Shown: positions 6,379 to 25,980 of the stretch, one piece after another
How positions within the stretch are numbered: position 1 is the stretch's first letter
Layout of the letters: each line of letters opens with the position of its first letter
From: Gemmatimonadota bacterium
GTDB taxonomy: Bacteria; Gemmatimonadota; Gemmatimonadetes; Longimicrobiales; Gaopeijiaceae
Reading direction: 5' to 3'
Assembly (NCBI GenBank): GCA_009841475.1
Contig: VXLT01000297.1
Location: 1 to 37,085 of the forward strand
Length of the DNA stretch: 37,085 nt
Translations under genes and position numbers: made by a program
Notes under the pieces: model-generated
The model's database searches: none
Seen by the model: only the letters and a program-made list of their open reading frames with translations
What the model was told of the DNA's origin: nothing

Positions 6379-6840
6379 GTGACATCGGGCGGAAAGCGGC
6401 AGCGCCAGAACGCGCTGCTGGAGATCATCAGGGAGCACCGGGTGCCGCACCAGGAGGCCCTCCGCGAGCTTCTCGCCGAAGCGGGGTTCCCCGTTACGCA
6501 GCCCACCCTGTCACGGGACATCCGCGATCTGCGGCTCGTGAAGGTGACCGGGGCCAACGGCAGGCCGCACTACACGCTCCCGGAGGAGTGGGACCATGTT
6601 CCACCGCTCGACTCCATCCTGCCGACCCTCTTCGTGTCGGTGGAAACGGTGGGCAACCTGGCCATCGTGCGCACGCTGAACGGCGCCGCGCAGACGGTGG
6701 CGTCGGGGATCGACTGGGAGGAGTACGAGGGGCTGGCCGGTACCATCGCCGGCGACGACACCGTGCTTCTCATCCTGAGGGATGCGGGCACGGCGGAGGC
6801 TGTGGCCCGCGCACTGGGGGAGCTGGCCGGGAAGGCCTGA
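6379..6840 (+). CDS. argR: Arginine repressor ArgR
   Basis: This is an arginine-sensing transcriptional regulator that, in studied bacteria, forms hexamers and binds ARG boxes. The N-terminal winged helix holds QPTLSRDIRDL (41-51), the family's recognition-helix signature. The C-terminal oligomerisation/arginine-binding domain holds GTIAGDDT (121-128). The GTG at 6379 gives 153 residues, the usual size, and has an AAAGGGG ribosome-binding site; a GTG at 6358 lacks one. It starts 28 bases after the TonB receptor, so the two may share a transcript, and it directly precedes argG, its expected target. A candidate ARG box overlaps the argG promoter downstream. Confidence 0.95.
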   Translation: MTSGGKRQRQNALLEIIREHRVPHQEALRELLAEAGFPVTQPTLSRDIRDLRLVKVTGANGRPHYTLPEEWDHVPPLDSILPTLFVSVETVGNLAIVRTLNGAAQTVASGIDWEEYEGLAGTIAGDDTVLLILRDAGTAEAVARALGELAGKA

Positions 6841-6897: not shown

Positions 6898-6926
6898 TTG
6901 ACGCCGGAAAGATAAACGCATATTAT
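6898..6926 (+). promoter_or_regulatory. Strong sigma-70 promoter for argG-argH
   Basis: TTGACG (6898-6903) and TATTAT (6921-6926) have the optimal 17-base spacing, with a predicted start near 6933 and so a leader of almost 200 bases before argG. The surrounding block 6905-6960 is unusually AT-rich for this genome. Confidence 0.7.
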
Positions 6927-6933
6927 TTCATTG
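6917..6933 (-). promoter_or_regulatory. Candidate ARG box overlapping the argG -10 element
   Basis: Read on the minus strand this site is CAATGAAATAATATGCG, resembling the ARG-box pattern TGAAT-four A/T bases-ATTCA: TGAAA, then TAAT, then ATGCG (7 of 10 arm positions match). It covers the -10 hexamer, where ArgR binding would block RNA polymerase. A second AT-rich stretch with TGCAT and ATTCA (6938-6955) has the wrong spacing for a classical box. Inference from pattern only. Confidence 0.45.
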
Positions 6934-6966
6934 TTGTTGCATTATCCTTCATTCACACTCAGAAAA

Positions 6967-7094
6967 CCGGGCGCTCCCCGGAGCGGCCGGGTTGTTCAGG
7001 GACCCGGAGCGCAAGGTGTTGGACAGTTACCGTACGGCCTTGGCGGGAGACGTACGGACCTTGCGCTCCGGCCCGCAACCCGGCAGGGTGCCGG
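6967..7094 (+). promoter_or_regulatory. Structured RNA leader of argG with three hairpins and alternative pairings
   Basis: Three stems can be drawn. P1 is 6967-6976 with 6981-6990 (nine pairs, one mismatch, CCCG loop). P2 has a perfect 14-pair outer stem, 7004-7017 with 7058-7071, and a seven-pair inner stem, 7030-7036 with 7051-7057, separated by a 12-base left bulge. P3 is 7080-7085 with 7089-7094. The P1 and P2 strands are interchangeable: 6971-6977 (GCGCTCC) can also pair with 7006-7012, and 6978-6985 can pair with 7064-7071. Such mutually exclusive pairings are typical of attenuators and riboswitches. There is no T tract, so a classical intrinsic terminator is not obvious. Regulatory function is inferred. 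Confidence 0.5.
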
Positions 7095-7129
7095 CCGAAG
7101 ACGGAGACTGAACAGGAACGGGATTTTCA

Positions 7130-8440
7130 ATGAAGATCGTGCTGGGATACTCGGGGGGTCTGGACACCACGGTGATCGTTCCGTGGCTGCGGGAAAACTA
7201 CCAGGCCGATGTCATCTGCATGGCGGCGGATGTGGGACAGCGCGGCGGGGTCGAGAAGCTTGCCGGGAAGGCCTTTGCCACGGGGGCTTCGGGCTTCTTC
7301 GGAGAGGACCTGAAGGAGGAGTTCGTCGCGGACTATGCGTTGCCGGTGCTGAGAGCGGGCGCCGTGTACAGCCGCAAGTACTTGCTGGGAACGGCCATGG
7401 CGCGGCCCTTGATTTCGCGCAGAATGGTCGAGGTGGCCCGCCGGACCGGGGCCGACGCGCTGGCTCACGGATGCACAGGCAAGGGCAACGACCAGCTCCG
7501 CTTCGAGGTGTCGTTCGCCGCGCTGGCGCCGGACCTGCGGGTGATCGCGCCGTGGAGGGAATGGGACATCCGGTCGCGGGAGGACGCGCTGGACTACGCG
7601 CGAGCCCGCGGCATCTCGCTCGAGGGGATCGACGTCGAGAAGCTGTACTCCCGCGACGAGAACCTCTGGCACATCAGCCACGAGGGCGGACCGCTCGAGG
7701 ACCCGGGCAACGCTGCGGGGTCCGGCGTGTTCGTTTGGACGCGCGATCCGGCGGACGCCCCGGACGTGCCCCTCGAGATCGAGATCGGTTTCGAGGGTGG
7801 CTTCCCGGTCACCATCGATGGGCACGCGCTGTCGCCGCTGGACCTCCTCGTCGAGCTCAACCGGATGGGTTCGGAGCACGGTGTGGGCCGCGCCGACGTG
7901 ATCGAGGACCGGGTGGTCGGGATCAAGTCCCGGGGCGTGTACGAAACGCCCGGCGGCACGATCCTGCTGGCCGCGCTCCAGGAGCTGGAGCAGCTCGTGC
8001 TGTCGCGCCGCTGCCTGGCCCTCAAGGACACTCTCGCCCCGCGCTACGCCGACCTCGTGTACGAGGGCCTGTGGTGGACCCCGGAACGGGAGGCCCTGGA
8101 CGCCATGGTCGACAAGATGATGAAGCACGTAACCGGGACGGTGCGGCTGCGCCTCTTCAAGGGGCAGGCAACGGTGGTGGCGCGCCAGGCTCCGGCGTCG
8201 CTCTACGACCTCGATCTCGCCTCCTTCGGCGCCTCGGAAGGGTACGAGCACTCCGACTCCAGCGGCTTCGTGAAGCTGTTCAGCCTCCCGCAGCGGGCGA
8301 TCGCCGCGCAGGAGGAGGCCGCGCGGGAAACGGCCCGGTCGAACGGGCATGCGAGCGGCGCGGTGGGTGTGCGGCCCGGCGGCGCGGCCCGCGGCCCGGC
8401 GGGCACGCCCCGGCGGCTGGTTTCCCCGGTGGGCCACTGA
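7130..8440 (+). CDS. argG: Argininosuccinate synthase
   Basis: This enzyme condenses citrulline and aspartate with ATP to argininosuccinate, the penultimate step of arginine synthesis in the cytoplasm. The ATP-pyrophosphatase loop GYSGGLDTT lies at residues 6-14, and ACTGKGND-type substrate-binding sequence appears as HGCTGKGNDQ further on. The ATG at 7130 fits the family's start, with CAGGAA upstream. The protein is 436 residues against about 400 usual; the extra is a C-terminal tail rich in glycine, alanine and arginine (from about residue 405), probably disordered. argH follows after 34 bases, so both should be expressed from the promoter and leader upstream. Confidence 0.97.
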   Translation: MKIVLGYSGGLDTTVIVPWLRENYQADVICMAADVGQRGGVEKLAGKAFATGASGFFGEDLKEEFVADYALPVLRAGAVYSRKYLLGTAMARPLISRRMVEVARRTGADALAHGCTGKGNDQLRFEVSFAALAPDLRVIAPWREWDIRSREDALDYARARGISLEGIDVEKLYSRDENLWHISHEGGPLEDPGNAAGSGVFVWTRDPADAPDVPLEIEIGFEGGFPVTIDGHALSPLDLLVELNRMGSEHGVGRADVIEDRVVGIKSRGVYETPGGTILLAALQELEQLVLSRRCLALKDTLAPRYADLVYEGLWWTPEREALDAMVDKMMKHVTGTVRLRLFKGQATVVARQAPASLYDLDLASFGASEGYEHSDSSGFVKLFSLPQRAIAAQEEAARETARSNGHASGAVGVRPGGAARGPAGTPRRLVSPVGH

Positions 8441-8474
8441 CCCTAACGGCCGGACAGCACGGGGACGGGTAGCC

Positions 8475-9923
8475 GTGGTGGATTCGCCGCGCGAGGGAAC
8501 CGGCCACGCCCTCTGGGGAGGGCGCTTCGAGGGCGGGCTCTCCCGCGAAATGGAGGCGCTCAACCGCTCCCTCGATGTGGACTGGCGCCTCTGGCGGCAG
8601 GACGTGCGGGGCAGCCGCGCCTGGGCCCGCGGGCTGGAGCGGGCGGGGATCCTCTCGGCCGCCGAGGCCGCCGGGATCGACGACGGACTCCGCCGGGTAG
8701 CCGCGACGCTGGAGGCGGCGCCGGGACCGGAAGCCTTCCCCGACGAAGACATCCATACGGTCGTCGAGCGCCTTCTCACCGAGACGATCGGCCCGGTGGG
8801 CGGGAAGCTCCACTCCGGACGCTCCCGCAACGACCAGGCGGTTACGGGCTTCCGACTCTGGGGGAAGGATGCGATCCGGGGGCTGCGCGGGGAGCTGGCC
8901 GCCCTGATCGAGGCGATCACCGCGAAAGCCCGCGAGACGGCCGGGATCGTGATGCCCGGCTACACCCACCTCCAGCAGGCCCAGCCCGTCCCGGCCGCGC
9001 ACTGGCTCCTGTCGCGCGCCTGGCCCCTGGTCCGGGATCTGGAACACCTGCGCGCGGTGCTCCGCGAGTGCGACGTTCTTCCCCTCGGCTCGGGGGCGCT
9101 GGCCGGATGCCCCTTCGAGGTGGACCGCGACGCGCTCGCCGCCGACCTCGGCTTCAGCCGCATCACCGAGAACTCGATGGACGCGGTAGGGGACCGCGAC
9201 TGGGCCGCGCGCCTCGTCTTCGGCGCCGCCATGACCGGGGTCCACCTCTCCCAGCTCGCCGAGGACCTGGTCCTCTTCTCGGCCACCGAGTTCGGGTTCG
9301 TGCGGCTCGGGGACGGGTTCACGACGGGGTCGTCGCTGATGCCGCAGAAGCGGAACCCCGACGTGGCCGAACTCACGCGGGGCAAGTCCGGAAGGCTGGT
9401 CGGCAACCTGACGAGGATGCTGACGGTGCTGAAGGGGCTGCCTGCGGGCTACAACCGGGACCTGCAGGAGGACAAGGAAGCCGTCTTCGACTCGGTGGAC
9501 ACGCTGGCCGTGGTGCTGCCCGCGATGACCGGCGCCGTGCGGAGCATGAGGCTGGTGCGGGCGAGGATCGAGGAGGCGCTGCGCCCCGAGATGCTGGCCA
9601 CCGACCTGGCCGACCACCTGGTGCGTCGCGGGGTGCCGTTCCGCGAGAGCCACGACCTCGCGGGGGCGCTCGTCCGCACCGCCGAGGAATCGGGACGGGA
9701 GCTGAGCGAGCTGACCCTCGAAGAGATGCAGGCCGTGCATCCGGACTTCGGCCCGGAGGTGTTCGCGGTCTTCGACCCGAAGTCATCGGTGGAGTCGCGC
9801 GCGGTCCGGGGCGGCACCTCCGCCGAGGCGCTGGCAGCCCAGTTCGCGGCGCTGGAGGAGGCGGTGGCGCGCGCTACAGCGTCCGCCCCGCCGCCTCCGC
9901 AAAGACCCCGAGATCGCGCATAA
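8475..9923 (+). CDS. argH: Argininosuccinate lyase
   Basis: This enzyme cleaves argininosuccinate to arginine and fumarate, the last step of arginine synthesis. It belongs to the fumarase/aspartase superfamily and carries the N-terminal LWGGRF motif (13-18), HSGRSRNDQ (113-121), [10 protein letters not shown] and the superfamily signature [11 protein letters not shown] (about 285) with its catalytic serine loop. I start it at the GTG at 8475 (a second GTG is adjacent at 8478) because GGGGACGGG lies just upstream and the family N-terminus begins there; the longer frame runs into argG. The length, 482 residues, is slightly above the usual 460 because of a proline/arginine-rich tail. Its last 50 bases overlap the 3' end of the DAHP synthase gene on the opposite strand. 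Confidence 0.96.
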
Positions 9924-25883: not shown

Positions 25884-25980
25884 GGGGGCGGATCGGGACT
25901 GGTGTTCCGTCTGGTCTTCAAAACCAGTGCGCCCGGCTAAGACCCGGGTGGGTGGGTTCGATTCCCACACGCCCCCGCCA
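25884..25980 (+). tRNA. selC: tRNA-Sec (anticodon TCA)
   Basis: This 97-base gene encodes the tRNA that inserts selenocysteine at UGA codons. The acceptor stem is GGGGGCG (25884-25890) with CGCCCCC (25970-25976), followed by discriminator G and an encoded CCA. The D arm has six pairs (25894-25899 with 25904-25909) and a four-base TGGT loop, a hallmark of tRNA-Sec. The anticodon stem CTGGT/ACCAG holds loop CTTCAAA with anticodon TCA at 25918-25920. The long variable arm pairs 25930-25936 with 25944-25950. The T arm is 25952-25968. The eighth acceptor pair expected in bacteria would be G25891 with A25969, a mismatch. No selA, selB or selD is in the window. Confidence 0.93.

Follow-up and report, generated by a model that had tools for sequence, protein, structure and literature searches.

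The window analysed here is a stretch of 37,085 nucleotides from a Gemmatimonadota bacterium (contig VXLT01000297.1). It contains, in this order, argR, a sigma70-like promoter with ARG-box-like sites, a leader and the genes argG and argH. The features of this setting are as follows.

6379–6840, + strand: argR, arginine repressor, directly upstream of the promoter and leader (TIGR01529 argR_whole, E = 1.5e-35, 122.4 bits, just under the curated cut-off of 130.45)
6898–6926, + strand: sigma70-like promoter TTGACG-17-TATTAT, with the transcript predicted to start at about 6933–6934
6917–6951, + strand: two putative ARG-box-like ArgR operators (6917–6930 and 6938–6951), 21 bp apart, which overlap the -10 region and the start site
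7130–8440, + strand: argG, argininosuccinate synthase, first gene of argG-argH (NF001770, 549 bits; TIGR00032, 452 bits; both above cut-off)
8349–9923, + strand: open reading frame with argH, argininosuccinate lyase (TIGR00838, E = 1.9e-160; homology from about 8511)

The control shuffles for the promoter score of 6898–6926 average 0.0, and a promoter-like site lies at the same place ahead of the RNA element described below in 26 relatives. The two ARG-box-like sites are the only such matches in the window, and a sequence resembling them is also found in the argG leaders of the genus. Repression of arg operons by ArgR at ARG boxes is a known system that is present here too as a transcriptional layer, with its tandem boxes over the promoter and argR adjoining, so that the layering of ArgR with a leader RNA suggested in an earlier note on this DNA fits the locus. 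The ARG box is a DNA operator, however, and leaves the RNA element unexplained. The ArgG of one Gemmatimonadetes relative is 95% identical to that of the window.

The earlier note had described the leader as a perfect 14-pair stem with an inner seven-pair stem, flanked by two smaller hairpins, and all of these parts are present. The leader 6933–7135 (203 nt) folds with -91.1 kcal/mol (z = -3.96), far more stably than its shuffled versions, none of 200 of which folds as well. The core at 6997–7076 (80 nt) alone gives -44.4 kcal/mol (z = -4.37). It is this core that is conserved, a narrower unit than the 6967–7094 first delimited. Its parts and the hairpins on either side of it are the following.

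6997–7076, + strand: conserved RNA element, in the form that the argG-leader element takes in the genus (matched by models R1 and R3)
6999–7001, + strand: outer GGG of the P1 5' strand, paired with 7072–7074; a bulge follows at 7002–7003
7004–7017, + strand: P1 5' strand CCGGAGCGCAAGGT, perfect complement of 7058–7071 (the 14-pair stem)
7018–7029, + strand: variable 5' bulge, where hairpin P2 stands in other genera
7030–7057, + strand: hairpin P3, stem CCGTACG/CGTACGG (7030–7036 with 7051–7057, the inner seven pairs) around the conserved loop GCCTTGGCGGGAGA, nearly invariant in the genus
7042–7046, + strand: invariant pentaloop GGCGG, closed by U7041-G7047 (U-G, C-G or U-A in relatives)
7058–7074, + strand: P1 3' strand ACCTTGCGCTCCGG and outer CCC, which continues into a U-tract in other genera
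6964–6993 (approximate), + strand: accessory 5' hairpin formed by the first CCGGAGCG/CGCTCC pair, in the nearest relatives only
7079–7095 (approximate), + strand: small 3' hairpin that has no U-tract, in the nearest relatives only

The sequence CCGGAGCG does occur twice (6978–6985 and 7004–7011), as does CGCTCC (6972–6977 and 7064–7069). The strand exchange that had been proposed from these repeats for the first two hairpins is confined to the nearest relatives; most of the genus has no 5' hairpin, which the exchange would need.

Conservation within the window's genus was followed with a covariance model (R1) built from 18 genus sequences and one outgroup sequence (J028). R1 matches 21 of 23 genus genomes, with one copy in each and only in the argG leader. 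In one of the other two genomes (G008) R1 does not find the element although argG, the promoter and the leader are present, and in the second (G010) there is a match neither to the element by R1 nor to argG. A repeat or a mobile element was rejected, there being only one strong copy per genome. Among the genus leaders the stem sequences differ while the apical loop is nearly invariant. In alignment A1 92.6% of the cells pair and 11 pairs show two-sided changes, two-sided changes being seen at seven helix-1 pairs; when the partner is slid by one column, pairing falls to 42%. The genus form has lost P2 and the U-tract. A genome placed in another genus (G416, locus L156) contains a second argG that is 81% identical to the window's and is preceded by a genus-type element; this second argG is possibly contamination (6%).

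The element is also found outside the window's genus, in about 34 genomes of 13 genera as identified by models and inspection. Two models, R2 and R3, were built from non-genus members, R3 being trained without the window's genus. They match in 12 further genera, and one locus (L179 in G048) was added by eye. In total the element is present in about 55 genomes (more than 50) from 14 genera of a single Gemmatimonadota family, again with one copy per genome. Outside the genus it forms a three-way junction in which P1 and the loop-bearing P3 are joined by a further hairpin, P2. In a covariance-model alignment of 26 non-genus members (A5) 94.8% of the cells pair and no shuffle attains any of the measures; 21 of 30 pairs show two-sided changes, a count that is favoured by the fitting of A5 to the structure. 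A MAFFT alignment made independently of the structure (A3) has eight such pairs. The two-sided counts of A1 and A5 are matched by at most one of 500 shuffles and by none of the slid versions. No member departs from the pentaloop GGCGG, and the pair that closes it is U-G, C-G or U-A, which places the boundary of the loop. The covariance models built from related argG leaders, one of the checks that had been proposed, have thus found a conserved and covarying element.

R3 finds the window's element with 33.5 bits (E = 1.3e-5 in 62 kb) and most of the genus elements at the expected place, five of them weakly (E from 0.017 to 0.84). Because a model naive to the genus recognizes the window copy and other genus copies, the genus form is most likely this element too, with a bulge as what is left of P2. 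All credible matches among 395 genomes of the phylum (R1 and R2) and 394 genomes of the class (R3) lie in the one family, in searches whose filters are stricter at this size so that distant relatives could be missed. A further 35 genomes, linked to other argG loci and for the most part from other phyla, gave one weak match, to a plain GC-rich hairpin, and the element is absent from the two other genera whose argG is the most similar (L157 and L158). Weak model matches at L269, L270, L271, L282 and G107:C257 were set aside, as they do not have the features of the element. Rfam 15 has no family that matches the element at the gathering threshold in the window and 23 related loci, and the best sub-threshold matches look like chance; with permissive settings, the window leader and L175 yielded weak and unrelated matches only. 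The claim of an undescribed structured leader RNA before argG, with no Rfam family, is borne out in this respect as well as by the covariation in relatives.

The element is linked to one operon. argR lies upstream of it wherever matched, with neighbours placed by strand. The downstream gene is argG in most members; wherever a gene is visible there, it is argG or argH, one orphan excepted. In eight genomes (loci L247, L252, L256, L259, L260, L274, L277 and L279) argH follows directly, and the element therefore tracks the operon and not argG as such. A remnant of argG (residues ~330–399) persists between the element and argH in L252, and for this reason the argH-first cases have probably arisen through loss of argG from an argR-element-argG-argH operon. 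Several argH-first genomes have a more distant argG matched elsewhere. Since the element also directly precedes argH, autoregulation by ArgG through it is unlikely. At L261, L268 and L278 the contig ends downstream of the element; in L261 and L278 argD lies upstream, and argD was rejected as the regulated gene, the downstream gene being off the contig. The orphan (L266, 1500–1590, in G044) has kept promoter, element and terminator behind argR in a genome with no argG match, and its element is nearly identical to the argG-linked copy of a sister genome (L204 in G079).

The architecture of the relatives suggests how such an element could act. P1 is followed by a U-rich tract, with five or more U in eight positions, in 25 of 25 assessable non-genus members and in 0 of 21 genus members. 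Outside the genus the element is, by its predicted structure, an intrinsic terminator with a conserved loop. The basal stem P1 runs straight into the U-tract, and what we see is thus best described as a putative sensor embedded in an intrinsic terminator. The predicted transcript start lies 18–77 nt ahead of the element (26 members). Because the element is fused to an intrinsic terminator in other genera, "attenuator or riboswitch", as the earlier note had it, was the right kind of explanation; the window copy itself has no U-tract. In three loci (L161, L163 and L166) there is, between the promoter and the element, another small hairpin with a U-run behind it (CCCGATTCAATCGGGTTTTT), a possible tandem terminator. 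The P1 5' strand outside the genus is often GGGCGGAAG, like the loop GGCGGGAAG, and either of the two is a potential partner of CUUCCG, the 3' strand of the terminator. A conserved antiterminator was not found: between the P1 5' strand and the P2/P3 region 6.3 of 9 nt can pair, only slightly above the 5.3 of shuffles. Inspection by eye gave no invariant CCGCC partner in P1 or the tail for a pseudoknot with GGCGG. An attenuator based on a leader peptide was rejected; 8 of 26 members are devoid of an ATG or GTG open reading frame of at least six codons that begins before the loop, no peptide is common to the members, and a leader peptide is to all appearances unlikely.

The conservation, the structure, the gene linkage and, in the relatives, the terminator architecture are established. 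Our preferred reading, which we consider probable on balance, is that 6997–7076 belongs to an undescribed family of cis-regulatory leader RNAs, and that it is an attenuator of the argR-adjacent argG/argH operon, under ArgR, which senses arginine or an arginine-linked signal through the GGCGG hairpin. The switching, its direction, the effector and the output in the window's genus are what we infer. The likely recognition site would be hairpin P3 with its invariant GGCGG. An effector that signals arginine sufficiency, most simply L-arginine itself, would bind P3; the bound hairpin would favour closure of P1, and transcription would stop before argG/argH. With the effector scarce, P1 would close less often and the operon would be read. 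ArgR at the tandem ARG boxes would thus form a first layer, acting on initiation, and the RNA a second. P2 and the U-tract having been lost in the window's genus, the same sensor would need another output there: termination by Rho, the stability of the RNA, or translation.

Chemically, arginine is an obvious ligand for a riboswitch, and we know of no validated arginine riboswitch. A bolder form of the preferred reading, which we put forward tentatively as a possibility that the sequences allow, is that arginine (or else citrulline or argininosuccinate) is the ligand of the element, which would be the first natural riboswitch of this kind in bacteria, embedded in a terminator, with a three-way junction and recognition through GGCGG, working under ArgR on the last two synthesis steps. 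Features expected of a riboswitch are seen in this 5' leader, namely a covarying structure, conserved unpaired nucleotides and linkage to the genes of one pathway. Against the preferred reading stands that ArgR already senses arginine, so that a second arginine sensor needs a reason. The window copy with no U-tract, the lack of a conserved competing fold above shuffled controls, and the absence of the element from two genus members and from L157 and L158 also count against it.

The closest architecture is that of the HMP-PP (thiS motif) riboswitch, a validated ON switch that has its aptamer inside a terminator stem, a competing fold and possibly a pseudoknot (PMC6478431). The two share a small sensor in an intrinsic terminator, an abnormally conserved terminator loop and genes of one pathway. 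They differ in sequence, organisms and pathway, the element described here having a three-way junction and standing before argG/argH and not the thiS gene set; by analogy this is a likeness of design and not membership. The HMP-PP precedent being an ON switch, the direction proposed here is a guess. Riboswitches for lysine and other amino acids likewise combine a structured leader RNA and a terminator before an amino-acid biosynthesis gene, but the argG element is much smaller, has no Rfam match, and its ligand is putative. The carA (SRC-12-1) motif of Betaproteobacteria, an extended imperfect hairpin (PMC8632094), is also a candidate leader RNA, before a gene that feeds arginine and pyrimidine synthesis; it differs in gene, host and shape, and was set apart by its description and not by sequence. 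A 2022 review considers the claim of a fungal arginine riboswitch unsupported (PMC10043782). Among the open-access papers searched (preprints excluded), one has the phrase "arginine riboswitch", and it deals with magnesium and RNA stability, an absence that is no proof of novelty; in the main texts of non-coding RNA surveys of 26 and of 50 bacterial genomes there is no mention of argG or of Gemmatimonadota.

The strongest competitor, a serious one though rather unlikely in our judgement, is a protein that reads the GGCGG hairpin and alters termination, be it an arginine enzyme or a regulator that binds RNA; the RNA itself would then sense no metabolite directly. A short hairpin loop that stays invariant while its stem varies is what protein sites typically look like, and the genus variant, which has kept mainly the loop and not P2, suggests a compact site. 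However, no candidate protein was identified, and the enzyme at hand, ArgG, is an improbable reader for the reason given above.

It is very unlikely that the element is instead a T-box-like device that pairs with tRNA and takes the charging of tRNA-Arg as its signal. As in T-box leaders, an amino-acid gene is preceded by a leader with a terminator, and UGGC, the complement of the GCCA tRNA end, lies near the apical loop; the loop region also has CGG, an arginine codon, and tRNA-Arg(UCU) has G as its discriminator, the base that pairing with UGGC would require. The other two tRNA-Arg genes found have A at this position, and CCGCC is in none of the three, which makes a pairing of GGCGG with tRNA-Arg unconvincing. 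The element also differs from T-box leaders in having no stem I or specifier arrangement, no T-box sequence and no T-box match in Rfam.

We give hardly any credence to a third reading, in which the terminated transcript is a small RNA that acts in trans through its GGCGG loop from an ArgR-controlled promoter and read-through into argG is incidental. The promoter 18–77 nt ahead of a complete terminator would suit it, as would the orphan that retains promoter and element with no argG match downstream. Yet the genus has kept the loop though the U-tract of the terminator is gone, the linkage to argG/argH is nearly complete, and the orphan differs so little from the argG-linked copy of its sister genome that it may have become a remnant only recently. 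The least credible reading of all is a plain intrinsic terminator, or a GC-rich hairpin, that senses nothing, for although P1 and the U-tract make a good terminator in the relatives, the invariant loop, the covariation of P2/P3 and the place behind the operon's own promoter would be unexpected, and the genus retains the structure after losing the U-tract.

About 55 natural sequences, a defined structure, an invariant loop, natural losses and, in most genera, a built-in terminator readout make the question of an arginine riboswitch testable in vitro. The argG-leader element may be the first of this kind, with a protein or a tRNA as the alternative effectors. If the preferred reading of a terminator-embedded attenuator is true, it would add another sensor embedded in a terminator and, in the window's genus, a leader RNA that has retained the sensor after losing the terminator tail.

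Elsewhere in the window, at 25884–25976 (+ strand), there is a gene for selenocysteine tRNA (RF01852, 79.7 bits). A match to selB above the curated cut-off lies on another contig (C124) of the same genome, and because both are present, selenocysteine is probably used in the window's genome.
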